A stretch of 64,000 bases of DNA, taken from Oscillospiraceae bacterium (GTDB lineage: Bacteria > Bacillota > Clostridia > Oscillospirales > Ruminococcaceae). The translations under genes and the position numbers were made by a program. Below the pieces are notes generated by a model. It was not told the origin of the DNA, did no database searches, and saw only the letters and a list, made by a program, of their open reading frames with translations. Where the stretch lies: assembly GCA_017435565.1 (NCBI GenBank), contig JAFSEU010000022.1, positions 1-64,000 on the forward strand. Direction: 5' to 3'. Shown here piece after piece: positions 8,259 to 12,313 of this stretch (its first letter is position 1; each line of letters begins with the position of its first letter).

Positions 8259-9998
8259 ATGCTTAAACAAAAGCTGAAAAAACTCATAGCACTTTCGGGT
8301 GCGTTTGTAATCGGCGCAATGTCGCTGTTTACAAGTATGCCTGCCGCCGCAGGCGAGGTTGTGGGAACGGACATTAACAACTGCGATTATGTTTATACCG
8401 TTAACCAATCAATTCAGACATCAAGCAACGGGGATGAATATATTCTTTCAATCTCCGATATTCCTGCAAGCGCTTCAATTGAAGAAATACTCGTTCAGGT
8501 ATCGGGCGGAAGTCAGACGCAGGTTGCAATCGGTTTTTCCGTTGATGAGTCGGTCGGACTTGAAGACAACTGGTATAAAGATTCCGTAACTTCATACACA
8601 AGCAGCTTTACTGCGTCATATAACGTTTCGGATATCAGTGCAAATTATGACCACACTTCAAGCGCCCTTTATGTACAATACTGGTGGGGCACAAATTCAA
8701 CAATTACAATCGAAAAGGTAGGCGTCAATGTTGAAGGCGGCAACTCGGGCGTTTCAGACTTCACATCAGTAAAAGGTGACGCAAATGCCGACGGTGCCCT
8801 CAATTGTGCCGATATATATCAGCTCAACTCATACATTCTCAGAAAAACCGATGCCTGCAACGAAGCTGCAGAGCTTAATTCCGATGACAAGTTTTCCTGC
8901 GTTGATACGCTGATTCTCAAAAGACTGGTTCTCGGCATTTACAATCCTTCATCGGGCAACGAGGATATCAGGGATATCACGGGCTTTGAGCTTATGGCTG
9001 ATATGAAAATCGGCTGGAACCTTGGCAATACACTCGATGCTCACGCAGATTACGGCGTTACATTGGGCGTTTCTCAGGCAGAAACCTACTGGGGCAACCC
9101 TGTAACCACAAAGGCTATGATAGACGCCATCAAGAATGCAGGCTTCAACACGGTACGTATTCCCACAACATATATGAACCACACGGGCAGCGCTCCCAAT
9201 TATACAATCGACGAAGCATGGCTCAACCGTGTTCAGGAAGTTGTTGATTATGTAATTGCAAACGATATGTACTGCATTATCAATATCCACCACGAAAACG
9301 ACTGGCTCAAGCCCAAATATGCAAACCAGAGCGAATGTGAAGCAAGACTTGAAAAGCTCTGGACCCAGATTGCAAACCGCTTCAAAGAATATGATGATCA
9401 TCTGATTTTTGAGGTTATGAACGAACCCAGACTTGTCGGAGATCCGACCGAATGGAACGGCGGTACATCCGAAGCACGTCAGGTTATCAACTCCTACAAC
9501 CAGGTTTGTGTTGATACAATCCGTGCAACAGGTGGAAACAACGCTGAGCGCTGGCTTATGGTTCCCACATATGCCGCTTCAACGGTCAGCTCAGTTCTCA
9601 ACGAGTTTGTACTCCCCAGCGACCCTGCAGACAAGATTATGGTTTCTATCCATGCATATACACCTTATGACTTTGCGCTCAACACCACAGGAACATCAAG
9701 CTTTACTGATTATTACAGCATCGATTCTCTCTTCCAGACACTCAACTCAAAGTTCATTTCTCAAGGTGTTCCCGTAGTTATCGGTGAATTCGGCGCAGTT
9801 AACAAGAATAACGATTCACAACGTGAAACATGGGCTGCATATTACATAAGCAAGGCTTCAAGCTACGGCATCCCCTGCGTTTGGTGGGACAACGGACTTG
9901 TTTCGGGCGAAGGTGAATTGTTCGGGCTTCTCAACAGGTCGACCTGCCAGATGTATTATTCCGGCATTGTCAACGCAATGATGGGTGCTCTCAACTGA
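8259..9998 (+). CDS. Secreted GH5 endoglucanase with internal type I dockerin and N-terminal beta-rich module
   Basis: 579 residues. A signal peptide occupies about 1-32 (basic start, hydrophobic core, AAAG). Residues 33-165 form a Ser/Thr-rich beta-strand module, perhaps carbohydrate-binding but not assignable here. Residues 173-228 are a type I dockerin: first calcium loop GDANADGALNCAD, second loop LNSDDKFSCVD followed by the LKRLVLGIY helix. Residues 240-575 are a GH5 catalytic domain close to subfamily 4 (GWNLGNTLDA, NTVRIP, NIHHEND); the acid/base is Glu389 in VMNEP and the nucleophile Glu510 in VIGEFGA. It would cleave beta-1,4-glucan or mixed beta-glucan outside the cell while bound to a cohesin scaffold. 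The dockerin lies between the two other modules rather than at an end. Own promoter, strong GAGGAGG ribosome site, own terminator. Confidence 0.93.
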   Translation: MLKQKLKKLIALSGAFVIGAMSLFTSMPAAAGEVVGTDINNCDYVYTVNQSIQTSSNGDEYILSISDIPASASIEEILVQVSGGSQTQVAIGFSVDESVGLEDNWYKDSVTSYTSSFTASYNVSDISANYDHTSSALYVQYWWGTNSTITIEKVGVNVEGGNSGVSDFTSVKGDANADGALNCADIYQLNSYILRKTDACNEAAELNSDDKFSCVDTLILKRLVLGIYNPSSGNEDIRDITGFELMADMKIGWNLGNTLDAHADYGVTLGVSQAETYWGNPVTTKAMIDAIKNAGFNTVRIPTTYMNHTGSAPNYTIDEAWLNRVQEVVDYVIANDMYCIINIHHENDWLKPKYANQSECEARLEKLWTQIANRFKEYDDHLIFEVMNEPRLVGDPTEWNGGTSEARQVINSYNQVCVDTIRATGGNNAERWLMVPTYAASTVSSVLNEFVLPSDPADKIMVSIHAYTPYDFALNTTGTSSFTDYYSIDSLFQTLNSKFISQGVPVVIGEFGAVNKNNDSQRETWAAYYISKASSYGIPCVWWDNGLVSGEGELFGLLNRSTCQMYYSGIVNAMMGALN

Positions 9999-10038
9999 GA
10001 AATTGTATAATTTATTTATTTAATGTTACGATTTTGGA

Positions 10039-10071
10039 AGACGTGTTTTCATCGGAAAACACGTCTTTTTT
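10039..10071 (+). terminator. Intrinsic terminator after the GH5 gene
   Basis: 12-bp perfect stem (10039-10050 with 10055-10066), 4-base loop, run of five T. Confidence 0.92.
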
Positions 10072-10146
10072 GTTGTGAAAACTGCATAAAAACCAATTTC
10101 CATTTCGTCAAAAACGCTGATTTATACAAAAAAAGTATATAAAAAC

Positions 10147-10175
10147 TTGACAATTTAAATTTTTCAGAGTATGAT
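10147..10175 (+). promoter_or_regulatory. Near-consensus promoter for the leader RNA/zinc-ribbon gene
   Basis: TTGACA (10147-10152), 17-bp spacer, TATGAT (10170-10175): one of the best promoters in the window. Start of transcription is expected at about 10182. Confidence 0.85.
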
Positions 10176-10181
10176 TGCATT

Positions 10182-10312
10182 GTGGGGTAGGTTGTGCCTT
10201 TCCCAAAAGTAAATGACCAAGTAGCTTAACTTTCAAGAGCGTTGTTTTATCAAAGGTGTCGGTGCGAATCCGTCCTCAGGTCTAAAATTTTATTCATAGT
10301 GAGGGTAAATCT
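10182..10312 (+). ncRNA. Candidate structured, partly tRNA-like leader RNA (possibly raiA-motif class)
   Basis: About 130 bases between the strong promoter and the zinc-ribbon gene can fold. A first hairpin pairs GGGGTAGG with CCTTTCCC near 10183-10205. A second domain (10215-10282) resembles a tRNA: GACC (10215-10218) pairs with GGTC (10279-10282), GCTT (10224-10227) with GAGC (10237-10240) like a D-arm, and CGG (10260-10262) with CCG (10270-10272) around the loop TGCGAAT like a T-arm. The anticodon-arm equivalent is only a 3-bp stem, and no CCA end fits, so it is not a normal tRNA. Size, setting and the conserved-looking single-stranded stretches recall the raiA-motif RNAs of Firmicutes; that class name comes from memory and is uncertain. 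It may act as a cis leader or a free RNA. Confidence 0.55.
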
Positions 10313-10588
10313 ATGTACGAAGACAAGACATTAGTTTGCAAGGAGTGCGGAAACGAATTCGTATTCACAGCCGGCGAACAGGAATTCTATGCTGAAAAAG
10401 GTTTTGAAAATGAACCTCAGAGATGCAAGGCTTGCAGAGACGCAAGAAAGAATTCTTCAAGAGCTGACAGAGAAATGTTTGTTGCAACTTGTGCTGCCTG
10501 CGGCGGAGAGGCTAAGATTCCTTTCAGACCGAGAGAAGACAGACCTGTATACTGCAGCGATTGCTTTGCAAAGAAGAACGCTGAATAA
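10313..10588 (+). CDS. Zinc-ribbon protein with two CxxC pairs of domains (zf-trcl and CxxC-x17-CxxC type)
   Basis: 91 residues, no membrane segment. The first zinc ribbon uses CKEC (9-12) and CKAC (about 38-41), with the GEQEFYAEKGFENEP stretch typical of the small 'probable zinc-ribbon' family. The second uses CAAC and CSDC with a 17-residue gap that includes IPFRPREDRPVYC, matching the CxxC-x17-CxxC family. Biochemical function is unknown; RNA or DNA binding is plausible for zinc ribbons. Start is supported by GAGGGT. The gene is transcribed from a near-consensus promoter through a structured leader and ends in a terminator, so strong regulated expression is likely. Confidence 0.85.
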   Translation: MYEDKTLVCKECGNEFVFTAGEQEFYAEKGFENEPQRCKACRDARKNSSRADREMFVATCAACGGEAKIPFRPREDRPVYCSDCFAKKNAE

Positions 10589-10600
10589 GGTTCAAAAAAG

Positions 10601-10630
10601 CGCAGCCCTATAAGCGGCTGCGTTTTCTTT
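10601..10630 (+). terminator. Intrinsic terminator after the zinc-ribbon gene
   Basis: CGCAGCC (10601-10607) pairs with GGCTGCG (10616-10622), followed by TTTTCTTT. Confidence 0.85.
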
Positions 10631-10655: not shown

Positions 10656-10856
10656 ATGTTTGTTACAAAAGATTCTATTATAGGCGATATTCTCGATGCT
10701 GATTTCGACACAGCACCCTTCTTCCTTGAAATGGGTATGCACTGCCTCGGCTGCCCCGCTTCGAGAGGCGAAACTATTGAAGAGGCCTGCGCTGTTCACG
10801 GCGTTGACGTAAACGTGCTTATCGAAAAGCTCAACAACTATTTCAACGCGAAATAA
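10656..10856 (+). CDS. DUF1858 / hybrid-cluster-associated disulfide domain protein
   Basis: 66 residues. It matches the small DUF1858-type domain: a helical start (IGDILDAD), then FFLEMGMHCLGCPAS with the paired cysteines, then ETIEEACAVHGVDVNVLIEKLN. The two cysteines three residues apart could form a redox disulfide or bind metal; the domain is often found with hybrid-cluster proteins or other anaerobic redox enzymes, but its role is unproven. Good ribosome site (AAAGGAG). The stop overlaps the ATG of the next gene by one base (TAATG), so it is probably co-translated with the TrmK-Nif3 fusion. Confidence 0.88.
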   Translation: MFVTKDSIIGDILDADFDTAPFFLEMGMHCLGCPASRGETIEEACAVHGVDVNVLIEKLNNYFNAK

Positions 10857-12313
10857 TGCTCTCAAAAAGGCTGAAATTATGTGCGGAATTTGTAAAAGGT
10901 GATTTCGCCTGTGACATCGGCACGGACCACGCTCTTTTGCCCCTTTATCTTATAGAGTCGGGGATATGCAAAAGGGCACTTGCCTGTGATATTGCCGACG
11001 GTCCGCTTGAAGCGGCGAAGAAAAACATTGCACAGGCCAATCTCTCCGATGTTATTCAGACGCTGAAATCAAACGGCGTTGACACCGTTTCGTCCGAAGG
11101 CATAACCGATGTGATTATTGCAGGAATGGGCGGAGAAACGATTGTTGATATCCTTTCATCACCCAAAGCACATTGGCTGAAAAGCGACGTAAATATTATA
11201 TTACAGCCGCAAAGCAAAGCAGATGTGCTACGCCGTTGGCTATGTGAAAACGGATTTGAAACAATGCGTGAAAATGCTGTTTGTGAGGGCAAGTTCAATT
11301 ATGCGGTGATCTGCGTTCGCTATTGCGGCATATCGACCCCGTTGTCTGAAACTGCCGCCATTATAGGCAAGCTTGACCTTTCACTTGCAAATGAAAGGAA
11401 ATACGCCCAATTTCAAGTTGAAAGGTTTAATAATGCCGCAAAAGGGCTTTACGAATCGGGGAACGCACAAAAAGCTGACATTTTCACCAAAATTTCGCAA
11501 AAATTATTGCACAAATTGGATAGAAAAAAGATGACAATTTCAGAAATATATGATATAATAAATCTGCTTGCTCCGTTTAGTTCTCAGGAAAGCTATGACA
11601 ACTCAGGCCTTATAGTCGGCTCAATGACAAGCGAGGTTTCAAAAATTCTGCTCACGCTTGATATCACCGCCGAAATGGTCAGGGAGGCAAGCGAATGCGG
11701 AGCACAGCTTATTGTTTCGCACCATCCCGTGATTTTTTCTCCCATAAAGCAGCTTTGTGCCGAAAGCGTGCCCTATATGCTTGCAAATAACGGCATCGGC
11801 GCAATATGCGCACACACAAGCCTTGATATGGCACAAGGCGGCGTAAACGATGTGCTTTTTGATATGATAAAGCAGCCGCTGAGGGTCGCTTCCAGGGGTG
11901 AGATTTTTGAGAAAATCGCTGAAGGCACAGGCTACGGCAGCATCTGTGAGCTTGAGAACGCACTTGACGCCGACGACATTGCAAAAACGCTCAAAGACGT
12001 TTTCGGTTGCAGCGTTGTGCGCTATGTCAAGGGCACAAAGAAAATCAAAACCATTGCATATTGCTCGGGCAGCGGAGGCTCATTGCTTGAAACCGCAGTC
12101 AGAAAAGGCGTTGACGCGCTTATTACGGGCGATGTCAAGCACAGCGTATGGATTGAAGCAAAGAATTCAGGGGTTTCACTGTTTGACTGCGGACATTACC
12201 ATACAGAAAGAATTATTCTCCCCAAATTAAAACAGCTTATTACCAACAATACGACAGGTGTTGAAGTAATCATTTCAGAATATGACCAAGACCCTGTGAA
12301 GTATTGCTTCTGA
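10856..12313 (+). CDS. Fusion of tRNA (adenine22-N1)-methyltransferase TrmK and Nif3-family protein
   Basis: 485 residues with no break in frame. Residues 1-215 are TrmK (DUF633): SAM-binding DIGTDHALLP, ACDIADGPL and the diagnostic AGMGGETI. TrmK methylates N1 of A22 in tRNA. Residues 225-485 are a Nif3/YqfO-type protein: NSGLIVG, VSHHPVIF with two metal-binding histidines, CAHTSLD, ITGDVKH and the C-terminal GHYHTE. Nif3 proteins bind two metal ions; their cellular role is unsettled despite the old 'GTP cyclohydrolase I type 2' label. In Bacillus the counterparts are separate adjacent genes, so the fusion is notable. An internal ATG at the junction lacks a good ribosome site. RqcH follows 29 bases later. 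Confidence 0.92.
   Translation: MLSKRLKLCAEFVKGDFACDIGTDHALLPLYLIESGICKRALACDIADGPLEAAKKNIAQANLSDVIQTLKSNGVDTVSSEGITDVIIAGMGGETIVDILSSPKAHWLKSDVNIILQPQSKADVLRRWLCENGFETMRENAVCEGKFNYAVICVRYCGISTPLSETAAIIGKLDLSLANERKYAQFQVERFNNAAKGLYESGNAQKADIFTKISQKLLHKLDRKKMTISEIYDIINLLAPFSSQESYDNSGLIVGSMTSEVSKILLTLDITAEMVREASECGAQLIVSHHPVIFSPIKQLCAESVPYMLANNGIGAICAHTSLDMAQGGVNDVLFDMIKQPLRVASRGEIFEKIAEGTGYGSICELENALDADDIAKTLKDVFGCSVVRYVKGTKKIKTIAYCSGSGGSLLETAVRKGVDALITGDVKHSVWIEAKNSGVSLFDCGHYHTERIILPKLKQLITNNTTGVEVIISEYDQDPVKYCF

Follow-up and report, generated by a model that had tools for sequence, protein, structure and literature searches.

The question raised by this locus is what kind of RNA forms the leader of a gene for a small zinc protein, and what that RNA does for the gene. 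In the window (the whole stretch of 64,000 nucleotides analysed here), a strong promoter had been predicted to drive a leader that folds into a 5' hairpin and a cloverleaf-like domain and that might belong to the raiA-motif class or be a new RNA regulating the zinc protein. The promoter was found just as described (Table 1), and transcription of the leader would be expected to start near position 10182. An intrinsic terminator sets the upstream glycoside hydrolase gene apart from the leader unit, and a second one follows the zinc-protein gene; because the two flank the leader and the zinc gene, the unit is single-gene (monocistronic) here. No terminator lies between the cloverleaf and the zinc gene in the window leader, and transcription attenuation was rejected on this ground. 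By eye, the upstream gene (8259-9998) has the look of a secreted, cellulase-like glycoside hydrolase with a dockerin-like repeat (its NCBIfam match is weak), typical of a fibre-degrading gut relative of Ruminococcus. On the other side of the unit, a single reading frame (10856-12313) carries a TrmK-type tRNA (adenine-22) methyltransferase domain and a NIF3/DUF34 domain.

Table 1. Features of the leader and the zinc-protein gene in the window
Feature	Position	Strand	Basis or detail
Intrinsic terminator of upstream glycoside hydrolase gene	10036-10069	+	15-pair stem, then T-run
Sigma-A type promoter, TTGACA-17-TATGAT	10147-10175	+	11/12 consensus matches, 17-nt spacer
Possible 5' hairpin, GGGG/UCCC and AGG/CCU	10184-10204	+	Can form by sequence; not conserved
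Cloverleaf, most likely tRNA-derived, 68 nt, in 5' UTR of zinc-protein gene	10215-10282	+	Covariance model match, covariation, Rfam tRNA
Acceptor-like stem, 5' strand GACC (pairs with GGTC)	10215-10218	+	Covariation at 2-71 and 3-70
D-arm: GCTT, 9-nt loop without GG, GAGC	10224-10240	+	Covariation, alignment
Truncated anticodon-like hairpin, TTG-TTTTAT-CAA	10242-10253	+	Covariation at 27-43 and 28-42
4-nt variable loop AGGT, last base the partner of R15	10254-10257	+	A15-U48 type in 39/46, G15-C48 in one relative
T-arm, GTCGG-TGCGAAT-CCGTC, U54 and A58 retained	10258-10274	+	Covariation, tertiary-core counts
Acceptor-like stem, 3' strand GGTC, no CCA after	10279-10282	+	Sequence; CCA comparison with genuine tRNAs
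Shine-Dalgarno-like GAGGG	10301-10305	+	By sequence; 7 nt before ATG
Gene for 91-aa double treble-clef zinc protein (zf_Tbcl + zf_Tbcl_2 / CxxC-x17-CxxC)	10313-10588	+	PF13451, PF23477, TIGR04272
Intrinsic terminator 3' of zinc-protein gene	10597-10626	+	11-pair stem, T tail

A covariance model built from 17 leaders, with the window left out of the training set, recovered positions 10209-10287 at 61.9 bits (E=4.6e-17, the E-values of this model being rough) as its sole match in the 64 kb, and the element is present as a single copy in the window's genome. This match, together with the covariation described below, bears out the prediction that the zinc gene is preceded by a structured leader that resembles a tRNA, with likenesses of its D and T arms, yet is not a standard tRNA. 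Thermodynamic stability was no guide: the leader folds no better than its shuffles (z +0.70), so that a drawing of the cloverleaf alone proves nothing, and with the element alone reaching a mean fold z of -0.5, folding energy was dropped as support. The predicted fold held in part, in that the cloverleaf is conserved, whereas the 5' hairpin can form but is not. The hairpin region has a weak mean fold z of -0.8, and identity among relatives in the 60 nt 5' of the element (0.48) is at the shuffled baseline (0.47), against 0.68 in the element itself; the hairpin therefore falls outside the conserved unit.

Membership in the raiA-motif class had to be given up. The raiA motif resembles the element in being a structured, intergenic RNA of Bacillota, but it is larger and has two pseudoknots (PMC11751092). 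The Rfam raiA model had no match to E=10 in 10000-10400 or 10170-10312, nor any at its gathering score across the window, and what is conserved here is not the seven-helix fold with its P3/pk-loop pseudoknots but a cloverleaf of 68 nt, with 17 pairs that either covary or stay constant. All Rfam families other than tRNA were likewise rejected in searches of the window and its relatives, and neither the element nor PF13451 was found described in the literature searched.

The window's copy of the element reads GACC-AAGTA-GCTT-AACTTTCAA-GAGC-G-TTG-TTTTAT-CAA-AGGT-GTCGG-TGCGAAT-CCGTC-CTCA-GGTC. Covariation among homologous leaders, by which the original prediction could be judged, was found in all five helical segments, where per-pair counts over 103 distinct elements exceeded the shuffled expectation. 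It is documented for the acceptor (2-71 CG/AU/GU/GC; 3-70 CG/GC/UA), the 7-66 pair (GC/AU), the anticodon stub (27-43 UA/CG; 28-42 UA/AU/CG) and the T stem (49-65 GC/AU; also 50-64). In a model-fitted alignment of the 103 elements, a type that leans towards the structure in its covariation counts, two-sided changes filled 79 cells against 17.4 in shuffles (0/500), and slid registers were only 30-50% paired. When the sequences were aligned without fitting to the structure and the acceptor was excluded, there were still 15 two-sided changes against 3.9 in shuffles (0/500), the shuffle tests ignoring kinship among elements. Immediately before the cloverleaf, most elements have T-A-T (84, 86 and 90 of 103 at positions -3, -2 and -1), beyond what base composition would give; in the window these bases (10212-10214) are AAT.

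The element also retains the set of contacts at the core of a tRNA: U8-A14, R15-Y48, U54-A58 and the 7-66 pair. U8A9 is present in 43 of 46 elements, U54 with A58 in 44 of 46, and A14A15 with U48 in 39 of 46, one relative having G15-C48 instead. The D-loop GG goes together with the T-loop TTC: in 40 of 43 elements either both occur or neither does (Fisher p=8.5e-6, kinship ignored), and the window's element has lost both. In the Rfam searches the one meaningful match of the window leader was to tRNA, at 23 bits against a cut-off of 29 (E=0.006-0.017, in small searches), and at least 13 relatives of the element reach that cut-off, the best at 48.8 bits; the element of one relative is called an undefined tRNA by ARAGORN. 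Because relatives score above the tRNA cut-off, a tRNA is the most likely ancestor of the element, and the window's copy is, on these sequence comparisons, homologous to tRNA (RF00005) but diverged. The resemblance of the D and T arms noted in the original prediction is thus real, but "analogues" proved too weak a word for arms whose relatives pass as tRNA. RNA-family searches may miss the element because many of its members are called tRNA or fall just under the tRNA cut-off.

The likeness to tRNA, which extends to the cloverleaf and the geometry of the D and T arms, is offset by clear differences. The element lies in an mRNA leader and has mostly lost GG and TTC; its acceptor has only 4 bp plus the 7-66 pair; in place of a proper anticodon arm, with a 5-bp stem and 7-nt loop, there is a stub of ~3 bp whose loop varies freely in sequence and length among relatives. 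An encoded CCA, present in 60/60 genuine tRNAs checked, is absent from the element, and A-rich sequence follows instead. Although the Rfam tRNA scores of its relatives would suit a working odd tRNA or a free tRNA-like small RNA, the lack of a 7-nt anticodon loop, the freedom of that loop to vary and the missing CCA make such a role scarcely credible, and ARAGORN calls no tRNA at the element in the window.

By sequence the closest genuine tRNA is tRNA-Thr(GGU). One family of loci (L130, L131, L135, L136) has a true tRNA-Gly(CCC) directly 5' of the element, and in other genomes tRNA-Gly(CCC) adjoins tRNA-Thr(GGU). An origin from tRNA-Thr(GGU) can be suggested only tentatively, because the set of tRNAs compared was partly picked by the model. 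In the window's own genome, two 55-nt tRNA-like matches of 34.4 bits each (G000:C27:138667-138721 and 138783-138837) adjoin a normal tRNA and are perhaps truncated tRNA copies. Across the relatives, the elements grade from near-tRNA (48.8 bits) to unrecognisable spacers, as would be expected if the element were a functionless tRNA pseudogene in decay. Such decay is nevertheless very improbable, since the element shows the compensatory changes counted above, is far more conserved than its 5' flank, keeps its distance from the start codon and stays with the zinc gene after rearrangement.

This attachment to one gene is apparent throughout the survey. By BLAST, 23 of the 100 related genomes have the element, and the matches precede the same zinc gene or end at a contig edge, with the exception of one 23-nt match in G023. 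The covariance model gave 54 matches at E<0.001 in 95 related loci, and 50-odd further elements came from named genomes and other families. In total this makes 103 distinct elements among related Clostridia, nearly every one immediately 5' of the same zinc gene; Ruminococcus flavefaciens and many assemblies of Oscillospiraceae are among the named carriers. When the search was extended to 291 genomes of the class, the inspected matches above 46 bits all preceded the zinc gene, and the next ranks were genuine tRNAs. No element was found at 29 zinc-gene loci sampled across the phylum, of which nearly all lie outside the class, and nearly half of the 95 related zinc-gene loci are without a recognisable one. 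Some relatives have the zinc gene but no recognisable element, so certain lineages can do without it.

Directly 5' of the element, 92 of 101 loci encode a relative of SigH, the sporulation sigma factor. At the other nine, the window among them, no sigH lies upstream and the element still precedes the zinc gene; five of these (the window and four relatives) have a promoter with 11-12/12 consensus matches 12-67 nt 5' of the element. No clear sigH is present in the window's genome, where the best match has 26% identity (assembly 96% complete). Because the element is kept before the zinc gene where sigH is absent upstream, it is, as judged from gene order, to be assigned to the zinc gene and not to sigH. 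The same loci bear on the main rival to an action on translation, namely that RNase P and RNase Z would cut the ends of the cloverleaf, freeing the zinc message from sigH and fixing its 5' end. Plant mitochondrial t-elements and other cases of tRNA punctuation likewise place tRNA-like structures at mRNA borders. Processing of this kind would suit the position of the element between sigH and the zinc gene in most relatives, the retention of the acceptor and T-arm helix, and the frequency of U at -1 (90/103 elements, compared with 41/60 genuine tRNAs). We nonetheless consider it unlikely: unlike a punctuation signal, the element is kept where sigH is missing and a promoter stands immediately 5', leaving nothing to separate, its acceptor is reduced to 4 bp plus the 7-66 pair, and the cut mRNA piece would lose its leader.

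The gene that the element accompanies encodes a protein with matches to PF13451 (E=3.7e-26), PF23477 (E=1.5e-19) and TIGR04272. An AlphaFold model of the protein (mean pLDDT 87) returned no informative fold match, the best being VIA at a middling Z of 3.5 (a negative that does not prove there is none), and its sequence matches in the PDB were to generic zinc fingers. A relative is encoded in 91 of 100 related genomes, and the element offers a first handle on the function of this widely carried protein. Treble-clef zinc domains are common in RNA-binding proteins, and this, with the strict linkage of the element to one gene, would fit an autogenous operator, in which the tRNA mimic would be the site where the zinc protein, or some other protein that recognises tRNA, represses or activates its own message. 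The E. coli thrS operator, in which an mRNA leader mimics tRNA anticodon arms for its synthetase, is comparable as a leader that resembles parts of tRNA, but here the anticodon arm has been lost and the gene encodes no synthetase. Autogenous control is also doubtful because neither an RNA-binding function nor an informative fold match is known for the zinc protein and because some relatives of its gene lack the element.

The leader cloverleaf likely regulates the zinc-protein gene. From the end of the model to the ATG there are 22-31 nt in the central 80% of elements, a tightly kept spacing; a tRNA-like cloverleaf thus stands at a set distance before a single gene, within its 5' UTR, as in tRNA-like cis-acting leaders generally. 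As a precedent, the tRNA-like yjdF riboswitch comes closest; Trachman et al. describe its leader as homologous to, or a mimic of, tRNA (tRNA-Lys), and its tRNA-like fold binds ribosomes (Trachman et al. 2022, PMC9142559). In the same work, translation in vitro rose 2-6.3 fold when an authentic tRNA or a tRNA-like leader was put ahead of a Shine-Dalgarno sequence (PMC9142559). In both systems a tRNA-like cloverleaf stands 5' of the Shine-Dalgarno sequence of a gene for a small conserved protein in Bacillota. They differ in the gene, in the nearest tRNA (Thr-like for the element, Lys for yjdF), and in that the element has neither the purine-rich ligand loop nor a conserved pairing of T-arm with Shine-Dalgarno sequence.

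It is the shared plan and place that make control of translation through a tRNA-like shape the leading explanation, and we hold it probable that the element is a former tRNA turned cis-acting 5'-UTR leader, acting most likely on translation of the zinc protein. In outline, a tRNA gene between sigH and the zinc-protein gene would have lost its decoding function and become a cis-acting element in the 5' UTR of the zinc-protein mRNA. The folded element, ~30 nt before the start codon, may tune initiation of translation, most likely by way of its tRNA-like shape, which the ribosome or a protein that binds tRNA would contact, in the manner of the yjdF leaders. Given the shortened acceptor and anticodon arms, it is uncertain whether it would dock on the ribosome like a real tRNA.

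A closer correspondence would be a yjdF-type riboswitch, whose tRNA-like fold is stabilised by a small molecule so that the Shine-Dalgarno sequence is released. It would account for the plan that the two leaders share (PMC9142559), a tRNA-like structure ahead of a gene for a small conserved protein, and the window offers a single 5-bp case of possible pairing, between CCTCA in the element and TGAGG in the Shine-Dalgarno region. We regard such a riboswitch as quite improbable, however, since the purine-rich J1/2 binding loop is absent and the Rfam yjdF model had no match to E=10 at the window leader nor to E=0.05 in ten relatives. Across 103 leaders, moreover, cognate pairing of T-arm and Shine-Dalgarno sequence (mean -6.81 kcal/mol) was no better than non-cognate pairing (-7.24 kcal/mol; p=0.997), and a conserved switch of this type was rejected. 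As the yjdF-type off state is unconserved and there is no attenuator, any signal would more likely come from the ribosome or a protein than from a simple switch. An upstream open reading frame from the ATG common at the 5' end of the acceptor was also dismissed by eye; it lacks a Shine-Dalgarno sequence and a constant frame, and about one-fifth of members have no such ATG.

The graded series from near-tRNA to leader RNA, across many genera, makes the exaptation of a tRNA into mRNA control traceable step by step. We raise, as a possibility rather than a probability, that the element represents a widely conserved class of tRNA-exapted bacterial leaders, with a trimmed anticodon arm and a remodelled elbow (the contact of D-loop and T-loop being lost in most lineages), that would control a nearly universal uncharacterised zinc protein via the shape of a tRNA and possibly sense the state of the translation machinery. 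Two further groups of zinc-gene leaders were observed among the relatives. Eleven leaders without a strong match to the model (L028, L058, L021, L022, L027, L029, L031, L019, L184, L188 and L196) keep TGCC(C/T)...GGGCAAA or GGGTAAA ends, akin to GCCC...GGGC, around a different interior; they are perhaps a second version of the element that has diverged. Eight other genomes (L175, L198, L202, L210, L219, L224, L226 and L230) have in common a spacer 5' of the zinc gene with CCTGCGTTA/CTCCGCGTTA and CACGGGGCAA before GAGAGGTA; this spacer is conserved among the eight, is unlike the cloverleaf, and could be another structured leader.
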